Below are positions 5,296 through 8,009 of a stretch of DNA of 45,587 nt, piece after piece; within the stretch, counting starts at the first letter, position 1, and the number at the start of each line of letters is the position of its first letter. Origin of the DNA: Acidimicrobiales bacterium (GTDB taxonomy: Bacteria; Actinomycetota; Acidimicrobiia; Acidimicrobiales; UBA8190); contig DATKSK010000014.1 in NCBI GenBank assembly GCA_035531755.1, positions 1 to 45,587 of the forward strand, read 5' to 3'. The translations under genes were made by a program, and so were the position numbers. Below the pieces are notes generated by a model that was not told where the DNA came from, ran no database searches, and saw only the letters and a list, made by a program, of their open reading frames with translations.

Positions 5296-6609
5296 GTGAG
5301 CCGTTCTGAGCTGGGTCCCGTGCCGGCGTCGGCGGCCGGCTCGAGCGCTCCCCCGGGCACCACGCTCTCGTCGGTGACGTCCGCCGGCGACCCCGACATC
5401 GAGCTCCTCCTGCCCGGCCACGACGTCGAGGACCCCGAGGTCTCCATCGTCGTCCCGGCGGTCGACGAGGAGCTCACGATCGCCGACTTCGTGGCGTGGT
5501 GCCGCCAGGGCCTCGCCGACGCCGGCACGACGGGCGAGATCCTGATCGTCGACAGCTCGACCGACCGGACGGCGGAGCTGGCGCTCGCCGGCGGCGCCAG
5601 GGTCCTGCGCACGCCCAAACGAGGGCTGGGGCGTGCCTACATCGACGCCCTGCCCTTCATCCGGGGGCGCTACGTCGTGATGGGCGACGCCGACTGCACC
5701 TACGACTTCCGGCTCCTCGGCGGGTTCGTCGAGAAGCTCCGGCAGGGCTACGACTTCGCCATGGGGTCGCGCTGGCTCGGGAGCATCGAGCCCGGCTCCA
5801 TGCCCGCGTTGCACCGCTATCTGGGGACGCCGGTGACGACGTGGATCCTCAACCGGCTCTACGGCAGCCAGTTCACCGACATCCACTGCGGGATGCGCGG
5901 CATCAGCCGCGACGCCCTCGATCGCATGGGCCTCACCTCGCAGTCCTGGGAGTACGCGTCGGAGATGGTGCTCAAGTCGGTGCGGATGAAGCTCAGAACG
6001 AGCGAGGTGCCCGTCACCTTCTACAAGGACCGGGAAGGGCGGCTCTCCCACCACAAGCGCTCCGGATGGTTCTCGCCGTTCCAGGCGGCCTGGATCAACC
6101 TCCGCGCCATGTTCATCTACCGCGCCGAGTTCTTCGCCCTGAAGCCGGGCCTGCTCTTTCTTGTCGCGGGGCTGGTCCTCACGCTGCCGCTCAGCTTCGG
6201 ATCGATCTCTGTCGGCTCGGTCACGTTGAGCCTCTACTGGATGCTCCTCGGGGTGACCCTGGCCGTACTCGGGCTGCAGAGCTTCTTCTTCGGCGTGCTC
6301 GCGCAGGTGCTCTGCGACTACACCGGGGACGCGCGCGACCGCTGGACGGGGCTCTTCCGGTACACGCCGGCGGTCATGGCGAGTGCCGTGCTCTTCCTGT
6401 TGGGCCTGGGGCTCGCCGGTGCGCTCGTCGTCAGCTACCTCAGCCACAGCTTCACGCTCCCGCCGCCCTCGGCGCTGCTGGACCACCTGGCGGTGACGGG
6501 CTCGCTGCTCATGATCATCGGGTTCTCCGGGTTCTGCTTCACGCTCCTTCTCCACGCCACGGGCGTCCGCTACGGAACGGCTCGTGCTCCCGAGGACCGG
6601 CACCGGTGA
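5296..6609 (+). CDS. Family 2 glycosyltransferase with C-terminal membrane domain
   Basis: A 437-residue protein. A GT-A domain starts near residue 48 (VSIVVPAVDEE), with the DxD-type motif MGDADCTYDF and the helix GSRWLGSIEPG. These are characteristic of dolichyl-phosphate mannose synthase-like enzymes. After about residue 270 there are several hydrophobic segments, probably four membrane helices. Such enzymes pass a sugar from a nucleotide donor to a polyprenyl-phosphate or other lipid acceptor. The start is GTG 5296, with a CAGAAT hexamer 6 nt upstream and no clear ribosome site, so it may be leaderless. The stop overlaps the start of the methyltransferase gene by 4 nt. Confidence 0.86.
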   Translation: MSRSELGPVPASAAGSSAPPGTTLSSVTSAGDPDIELLLPGHDVEDPEVSIVVPAVDEELTIADFVAWCRQGLADAGTTGEILIVDSSTDRTAELALAGGARVLRTPKRGLGRAYIDALPFIRGRYVVMGDADCTYDFRLLGGFVEKLRQGYDFAMGSRWLGSIEPGSMPALHRYLGTPVTTWILNRLYGSQFTDIHCGMRGISRDALDRMGLTSQSWEYASEMVLKSVRMKLRTSEVPVTFYKDREGRLSHHKRSGWFSPFQAAWINLRAMFIYRAEFFALKPGLLFLVAGLVLTLPLSFGSISVGSVTLSLYWMLLGVTLAVLGLQSFFFGVLAQVLCDYTGDARDRWTGLFRYTPAVMASAVLFLLGLGLAGALVVSYLSHSFTLPPPSALLDHLAVTGSLLMIIGFSGFCFTLLLHATGVRYGTARAPEDRHR

Positions 6610-7229
6610 GCCCGGCCGACGCCACGAGGTCCGAAGCCTTCGGGCAGCGCCGCGCCATGTCGCCCGCAGACCGGCTGGGCGTGTGGCTGTCGGGACGCCG
6701 GATCCGCAAAGAGGTCGGCACGTTCCGCGGGAAGGCGATCGGCGACTTCGGCTGTGGCTACCAGGCCCGGTTCGCCCGGACCGTCCTCGACGAGGTGGCG
6801 TCGGCCACGCTCATCGACGTGGCCCTGGCCGACGACCTGAAGGCCGACCCCAGAGTGCGCGCCGTCGAGGGGTCGCTCCCGGACGCGTTGGCCGACCTCG
6901 CCGACGGATCGCTCGACGTCGTCCTGTGCGTGTCGGTGCTCGAGCACCTGTGGCATCCCGACGCCGCTCTCGCCGAATTCCACCGGATCCTGGCGCCCGG
7001 GGGCACGTGCGTGGTGAACGTCCCGAGCTGGCGCGGCAAGCGGTTCCTGGAGCTGTCCGCCTTCCGTCTGGGGCTGAGCCCGCCCGAGGAGATGGACGAC
7101 CACAAGTGGTACTTCGACCCGCGCGACCTCTGGCCGCTGCTGGTGCGGGCCGGGTTCGTCCCGCACGCGGTCCGCTGCTACCGCCACAAGTTCGGGCTCA
7201 ACACGTTCGCCGCGTGCAAGAAGTCGTGA
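6606..7229 (+). CDS. Class I SAM-dependent methyltransferase
   Basis: A 207-residue methyltransferase of the Methyltransf_11 type. Motif I is IGDFGCGYQARFA, followed by an acidic strand end (LIDVALAD). The post-motif is SLDVVLCVSVLEHLWHPDAAL and a later segment is ILAPGGTCVVNVPSW. The GTG start overlaps the TGA of the glycosyltransferase (GTGA) and is preceded by GAGGA, so the two are translationally coupled. The pairing suggests a substrate made by the glycosyltransferase, such as a lipid-linked glycan, but that is inference. Longer in-frame extensions upstream are shadows of the glycosyltransferase gene. Confidence 0.83.
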   Translation: MSPADATRSEAFGQRRAMSPADRLGVWLSGRRIRKEVGTFRGKAIGDFGCGYQARFARTVLDEVASATLIDVALADDLKADPRVRAVEGSLPDALADLADGSLDVVLCVSVLEHLWHPDAALAEFHRILAPGGTCVVNVPSWRGKRFLELSAFRLGLSPPEEMDDHKWYFDPRDLWPLLVRAGFVPHAVRCYRHKFGLNTFAACKKS

Positions 7230-7293: not shown

Positions 7294-7367
7294 GGGGGTG
7301 TAGCCCAACCGGCAGAGGCAGGGCGCTTAAAACGTCCCCAGTGAGGGTTCGACTCCCTCCGCCCCCA
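7294..7367 (+). tRNA. tRNA-Leu (anticodon UAA), short variable arm
   Basis: A 74-nt cloverleaf can be folded by hand. The acceptor GGGGGTG pairs with CGCCCCC, with one G-U pair and discriminator A. The D arm has a 3-bp GCC/GGC stem and an 11-nt loop containing GG. The anticodon stem GGGCG/CGTCC closes loop CTTAAAA, with anticodon TAA at 7328-7330. The T arm is GAGGG/CCCTC with loop TTCGACT. CCA is not encoded. The variable loop is only 5 nt (CCAGT), whereas bacterial tRNA-Leu normally has a long class II arm. The D arm and discriminator still look leucine-like. I saw no in-frame TTA codon in the window's genes, though the check was by eye. Confidence 0.85.
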
Positions 7368-7400
7368 CGATTCGGAACCCCACGACGTCGCGGACCGTCG

Positions 7401-7862
7401 TCACCGGCAGCCCGGCTCGGTGGCGACCTTGTCGAGCGCGTCGGCGAGCGCGACGAGCTGGCGCCGGCTGAGCCGGTCCACGAAATGGCGGCGGACCTGA
7501 TCGACGTGGTCGGGGGCCACCGCCTCGAGGCGGGCGCGCCCCGCCGGCGTGAGCTCGGCGAACGAGCCGCGCCGGTCGGTGGGGCACTGGCGGCGCTCGA
7601 CCAACCCGGCGCGCACCAGGCCCTCGAGCCGGCGCGTGAGCCCGCTCGGGGACAGCAGGAGGCGCTGCGCGAGCTCGCTCATCCGCAGCCGGCCGTCCTC
7701 CTCCTCCGACAGCTGCACCAGGACGCCGTAGTCGGCGACCGAGATGCCCTGGCTCGCCTGCAGCTCGGCATCGAGCCGTCCGAGCACGCGCGAGTGCGCC
7801 CGCAGCAGCGACCGCCACGCGTGCATCTCGAGCTCGTCGAGCCAGGGTGTCGTTTCGGACAC
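7401..7862 (-). CDS. MarR family transcriptional regulator
   Basis: A 153-residue winged-helix regulator. The N-terminal helix ELEMHAWRSLLRAHSRVL is followed by the DNA-binding core (SELAQRLLLSPSGLTRRLEG recognition region) and the wing (ERRQCPTDRRGSFAELTPAG). The C-terminal helices form the dimer interface. MarR proteins usually repress their own and neighbouring genes and release DNA on binding small ligands. The GTG at 7862 has TACGCT 6 nt upstream. A TTGC/GCAA palindrome covers the -35 position, consistent with autorepression. It is convergent with the tRNA gene and divergent from the TIGR03084 gene. The ligand is unknown. Confidence 0.9.
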   Translation of the reverse strand: MSETTPWLDELEMHAWRSLLRAHSRVLGRLDAELQASQGISVADYGVLVQLSEEEDGRLRMSELAQRLLLSPSGLTRRLEGLVRAGLVERRQCPTDRRGSFAELTPAGRARLEAVAPDHVDQVRRHFVDRLSRRQLVALADALDKVATEPGCR

Positions 7863-7868
7863 AACCCC

Positions 7869-7874
7869 AGCGTA
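7869..7874 (-). promoter_or_regulatory. -10 element (TACGCT) of the marR-type gene
   Basis: TACGCT on the minus strand ends 6 nt before GTG 7862. The spacing leaves no room for a ribosome site and implies a leaderless message. Confidence 0.45.
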
Positions 7875-7889
7875 TCGGAGGACAGTTGG

Positions 7890-7901
7890 TTGCGTATGCA
7901 A
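7890..7901. promoter_or_regulatory. Probable MarR operator
   Basis: TTGCGTATGCAA has TTGC/GCAA arms and closely resembles the TTGC-type inverted repeats bound by many MarR proteins. It covers the expected -35 position of the MarR gene, 28 bp upstream of its start codon, and lies 120 bp upstream of the divergent TIGR03084 gene. Confidence 0.5.
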
Positions 7902-8009
7902 TGAGATGGGATCGGGATCCCCGCCGCCTGCCGTCGGGTCGGCGCTCGAGCGACCGGTGCCTCCCCCGACCGGCCCGGGGGCTCGTGCCCTGGTCGGGGC
8001 CGGACCCCG

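Follow-up and report, generated by a model that had tools for sequence, protein, structure and literature searches.

Structure of the tRNA-Leu Gene

The window (the whole stretch of 45,587 nucleotides that was analysed) comes from a draft genome of 3.28 Mb, 96% complete, in which it is contig 14. ARAGORN called a tRNA-Leu(TAA) at 7294-7368, and the Rfam tRNA model RF00005 matched at 7294-7367 with 50.2 bits against a gathering score of 29. The features of the gene and of its surroundings are listed in Table 1. The leucine anticodon and the 3-bp D stem with a large D loop are those of a classical tRNA-Leu, but the long variable arm that also belongs to the classical (class II) form is absent, only the 5-nt CCAGT being present. 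All the leucine elements compiled in PMC9976931 that we looked for are there: A73, U8/A14, A15-U48, G18G19, and A20a, of which A14, A15, G18G19, and A20a lie in the D arm. One sister copy is identical to the window tRNA at 71 of the 74 bases.

Table 1: Features of the tRNA-Leu(UAA) locus in the window.
Feature	Position	Strand	Details	Basis
Class I tRNA-Leu(UAA) gene	7294..7367	+	74 nt, CCA not encoded	ARAGORN, Rfam, predicted fold, family conservation
Acceptor stem	7294-7300/7360-7366		7 pairs, one G-U	Read from sequence
Leucine-type D arm	7303..7319	+	Stem GCC/GGC, 3 bp; 11-nt loop CAACCGGCAGA	Read from sequence
Anticodon stem	7321-7325/7333-7337		5 pairs, one G-U	Read from sequence
Anticodon UAA	7328..7330	+	Reads UUA	ARAGORN
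Variable loop	7338..7342	+	CCAGT, 5 nt, ends in U48 (pairs with A15)	Read from sequence
T stem			GAGGG/CCCTC	Read from sequence
Discriminator base A73	7367	+		Read from sequence
Upstream genes	5296-7229		Resemble a glycosyltransferase and a methyltransferase	By eye
Downstream gene	7401-7905	-	MarR-like	By eye

The predicted fold shows the acceptor, anticodon, and T arms. Its energy barely beats that of shuffled sequences (z -1.26), so the case for a gene is made by the covariance score and the conservation. The initial annotation as a tRNA-Leu(UAA) with a class I variable arm is upheld by ARAGORN, Rfam, and direct reading, and the D-arm dimensions, discriminator A, and CCAGT that it gave can all be read in the sequence. 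An allo-tRNA or tRNA-Sec-like identity was considered and rejected: such tRNAs combine a long variable arm with 8/4 or 9/3 acceptor/T stems (PMC7609411), and the window tRNA has a 7/5 fold with its 5-nt variable loop.

tRNA Set of the Genome and Flanking DNA

In the source genome 42 tRNAs were found and typed. The leucine tRNAs with anticodons CAA, CAG, GAG, and TAG are class II, and UAA is present as class I only. The whole-genome search for a class II tRNA-Leu(UAA), which had been proposed at the outset, thus returned none among the 42 tRNAs, and none was found by pattern search in the 17 genomes of the window's family (f1). Since the genome is 96% complete, it is possible that a second UAA tRNA sits in an assembly gap. 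Also absent from the set are tRNA-Lys(UUU), tRNA-Ala(GGC), and tRNA-Gly(CCC), probably because of assembly gaps. The tRNA-Lys(CUU) of the genome has A73, A15, and U48 too, but with a 4-bp D stem, so the leucine core set (A73, A15-U48, and the rest) is neither sufficient alone nor unique to leucine tRNAs.

In a scan of the flanks, neither a promoter nor a terminator consensus turned up near the tRNA. It may be transcribed by read-through from the upstream gene, which ends at 7229, or it may have a promoter type outside the scan's consensus. Across the family the tRNA is conserved but its flanking DNA only slightly so. The arrangement of upstream and downstream genes given in Table 1 recurs in one relative (L062) but in few others.

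Distribution in the Order and across Actinomycetota

We surveyed 397 genomes of the order with one pattern for any leucine-like UAA tRNA and another for the class I form only. The former matched in 320 genomes and the latter in 96, of which 80, spread over 18 families, hold true class I UAA tRNAs as judged by eye. The window's family has the class I form in 15 of its 17 genomes. Five of the 80 class I genomes gave an extra long-gap match with the broader pattern; those in G160 and G246 are not tRNAs, and the others (G111, G169, and G193) come from genomes that are richer in AT and whose control counts are similar. The window tRNA has its nearest named relative, at 90.5% identity, in an Acidimicrobiaceae MAG, and another close one in an Acidimicrobiia MAG. 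Taken with the kinship table, which sets the genome in an order of over 60 families within an actinobacterial phylum, these relatives point to Acidimicrobiales. A class I UAA tRNA of another type, whose D stem has 4 bp and which carries a G1-U72 pair, was seen at L042 1467-1542 and L071 1486-1561 (genomes G041 and G053); G053, which is 63% complete, additionally carries a class II UAA tRNA (L052). This type may belong to another family or come from a mixed bin.

An rpoB tree was built from 39 genomes of the order, with the reading frame chosen by BLAST. The class I form is concentrated in a single deep clade, which has 14 class I genomes and 2 class II; exceptions occur in the other clade, chiefly in family f14. 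The class of the tRNA changes at least six times on this tree. One of the exceptions, G295, may be a mixed bin.

The phylum sample comprised 278 Actinomycetota genomes with a completeness of at least 95%, and the match lists were counted by eye. The class I UAA tRNA was present in 67 and the class II form in about 115; the rest were hit by neither of the two patterns, which therefore overlook some tRNAs. No genome had both, the two apparent overlaps (G246 and G732) being non-tRNA matches, and the hypergeometric probability of this exclusion is about 2e-19 with relatedness ignored. Since the two forms never occur together, one stands in for the other: in the source genome, in its family, and in the phylum sample the class I tRNA replaces rather than accompanies the class II tRNA of the same anticodon. 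The premise of the initial annotation that bacterial tRNA-Leu is class II therefore fails for many Actinomycetota. As a case that would contradict its reading, the initial annotation had named a gene that is the standard UUA reader of the whole clade, and this is what the surveys show for the family and for many other actinobacterial families. In Mycobacterium asiaticum, for which the full set of 46 tRNAs was typed, the UAA and CAA leucine tRNAs are class I and are the sole readers of UUA and UUG, and those with CAG, GAG, and UAG are class II.

LeuRS was considered as well, as the partner of the class I tRNA; its insertion types do not track the class of the tRNA, so a change in LeuRS could not be linked to the class I form. 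The LeuRS of the window's genome (L369, G000) and that of G005 align to the model without interruption, whereas in G008 and G002, two genomes of this family, the match is split around model positions 568-604. This may point to an exchange of LeuRS between members of the family.

Survey of the Armless Body

The body of the tRNA was searched with the pattern CCCAAN{1,3}GGNAGAGG ... YTNNNR ... GTTCRA, which fixed parts of the D arm and of the T loop and in which the anticodon and positions 73 and 48 were left free. It has one match in the window and none in 100 shuffles. Named genomes and viral contigs were then covered, and the counts are samples taken among the matches listed. From named genomes, 125 of the 126 matches listed are tRNAs, all with leucine anticodons (TAA 68, CAA 34, TAG 12, CAG 8, AAG 2, GAG 1). 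The named hosts among these matches are mostly Actinomycetota (Nocardia, Mycobacterium, Rhodococcus, Corynebacterium, Nocardioides, Bifidobacterium, and others), with a few in cyanobacteria and other phyla. From viral contigs, 130 of the 131 listed are leucine tRNAs and one is His(GTG). This last, at L296 527-575 on viral contig IMGVR_UViG_3300044858_005214, is the sole non-leucine tRNA among the 256 tRNAs listed. On the plasmid pTY66_01 of Mycolicibacterium sp. TY66 (L106 1-1320) about 15 tRNAs form an array, a class I tRNA-Leu(UAA) and a tRNA-Thr(AGU) among them.

The 255 class I leucine tRNAs among the matches listed have the D-arm layout of the window tRNA in common. They carry A73 in 255 of 255 cases, U8 in 255 of 255, and U48 in 252 of 255, none of these being fixed by the pattern. 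This conservation agrees with the leucine elements of E. coli, where LeuRS is independent of the anticodon and uses A73, A15-U48, G18G19, A20a, and D/T-loop contacts, and where tRNA-Leu variants without the long arm stay active (PMC9976931). Because the body is joined to six leucine anticodons and almost no others, the sequences argue that the armless body itself carries leucine identity.

UUA Codons and Alternative Roles

UUA codons were counted in 666 kb of the source genome, where a simple codon-score method called 604 genes. UUA is the rarest codon, with 8 of 190,748 codons in 8 genes (1.3%), which agrees with the very rare codon that the initial annotation had considered. It had also reported an apparent absence of TTA from the genes of the window, and this was confirmed (0 in 42 genes), about 0.5 TTA genes being expected at the genome rate. 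The listing of TTA genes that it proposed, run over the 666 kb, gave the 8 genes, among them proS and the trigger-factor gene. In the trigger-factor gene the UUA position corresponds to Leu in each of the three trigger factors displayed; in proS it corresponds to Leu, Val, and Ile in three ProRS. The mean relative position of UUA in its gene is 0.65, and none lies in the first 10%.

These codons bear on the suggestion that the tRNA acts as a bldA-like regulator, that is, a scarce UUA reader whose supply controls a set of UUA-containing genes. The rarity of the codon fits such a role, but it is expected at 73% GC, and the codon is neither kept out of housekeeping genes nor placed near gene starts. 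UUA at Leu or aliphatic sites in proS and the trigger-factor gene fits a leucine tRNA and speaks against the regulator. Moreover, the bldA type is a class II tRNA-Leu(UAA), which is the form present in the Streptomyces-like genomes that are the home of bldA, whereas the window tRNA is class I. We therefore regard a bldA-like role as very unlikely. The same two housekeeping proteins speak against charging by another synthetase with another amino acid, UUA being recoded in the clade. Such a non-canonical use was suggested by the missing arm, and in overall identity the tRNA does resemble other class I tRNAs (0.66-0.74 to those of its own genome, and 0.68-0.72 to the leucine tRNAs of that genome). 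However, 255 of the 256 tRNAs that share the body among the matches listed are leucine tRNAs, with A73 invariant and U48 near-invariant in them, which leaves recoding highly improbable.

A decayed or silent gene, for instance the remnant of a mobile element, would agree with the lack of a recognisable promoter, with the tRNA score, which is the lowest in the genome, and with the similar genes found in phages. Against this, every stem pairs, the gene is kept in 15 of the 17 family genomes and in 80 genomes of the order while its flanks have diverged, and another UAA reader was not found in the source genome. Decay has very little probability in our view, in line with the early reading that the gene is intact.

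Proposed Function and Significance

The structure of the gene, its conservation, the leucine-only anticodons of its relatives, and the exclusion with class II are observed directly, and the gene at 7294-7367 is very probably the organism's working tRNA-Leu for UUA, a class I tRNA charged by LeuRS that replaces the class II form. We infer both its expression and its charging with leucine, the latter from the leucine-only anticodons of the body in the sequences compared. The armless tRNA would retain the LeuRS contacts (A73, U8/A14, A15-U48, G18G19, A20a, and the fit of the D and T loops), so that LeuRS could load leucine onto it. The ribosome would then employ it, as the sole UUA reader of the cell, at the few UUA codons of this 73% GC genome, and in this lineage it would occupy the place of the usual class II tRNA-Leu(UAA).

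Textbooks ascribe the long variable arm to all leucine tRNAs. A review of 2023 states that the long arm of tRNA-Leu is kept everywhere except in animal mitochondria (PMC9976931). The open-licence papers that we searched did not describe any bacterial tRNA-Leu of class I. The window gene thus appears to be one member of a widespread form that is itself undescribed in those papers, and subscription literature or database annotation may already mention it. The surprise lies in the scale, since the class I tRNA is the sole UAA form in about a quarter of the sampled near-complete Actinomycetota genomes and class I tRNA-Leu is the sole UUR reader in a mycobacterium. This offers a natural and testable case of how LeuRS separates leucine tRNAs from other class I tRNAs. 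It bears on the replacement of tRNA isoacceptors and on the reason why phages carry such tRNAs, and it is relevant to annotation tools that assign the isotype by the variable arm.

Origin and Comparison with Known Leucine tRNAs

The body is common to hosts and phages, the two classes exclude each other, and the class changes at least six times on the rpoB tree. These observations suggest, as a tentative and rather doubtful reading, that a class I tRNA-Leu family which also travels in phages repeatedly took over leucine decoding in its hosts and displaced the class II isoacceptor in many bacterial lineages, the source genome being one case. Alternatively, the long arm may have been lost in place. 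The window tRNA has an identity of 0.70-0.73 to the class II UAA tRNAs of sister families and of 0.78 to a cyanophage class I tRNA, values that are too close for 75-nt genes, so that loss of the arm and replacement are hard to separate.

The phage tRNAs with the same armless leucine body include a UAA tRNA of cyanophage P-RSM6 (the one with 0.78 identity) and those of Mycobacterium phage Bonray (GAG), Streptomyces phage Comrade (CAA), and Pseudomonas phage XD2 (UAG). They accompany other phage tRNAs and have several leucine anticodons, whereas the window gene is chromosomal and fixed in its family. The class I UAA and CAA leucine tRNAs of mycobacteria and other Actinomycetota, for example those of M. 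asiaticum (L474, L481), likewise have a 5-nt variable loop ending in U48, the CCCAA..GGNAGAGG D arm, A73, and UUR anticodons, and there too class II has been replaced. They differ in the acceptor stem, which is of the GCCCCC type and not GGGGGTG/CGCCCCC as in the window tRNA, and in that CAA is also class I, when in the window's genome only UAA is class I and CAA is class II.

The class II tRNA-Leu(UAA) of sister families and of Streptomyces (the bldA type) has the anticodon and decoding task of the window tRNA as well as the 3-bp D stem, large D loop, and A73. It differs in the long variable arm, and in the genomes sampled across the phylum it never occurs together with the class I form. Animal mitochondrial tRNA-Leu resembles the window tRNA in having no long variable arm and is charged by its LeuRS without it (PMC9976931). 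That tRNA is organellar, whereas the window tRNA is bacterial and has a stable and complete cloverleaf.
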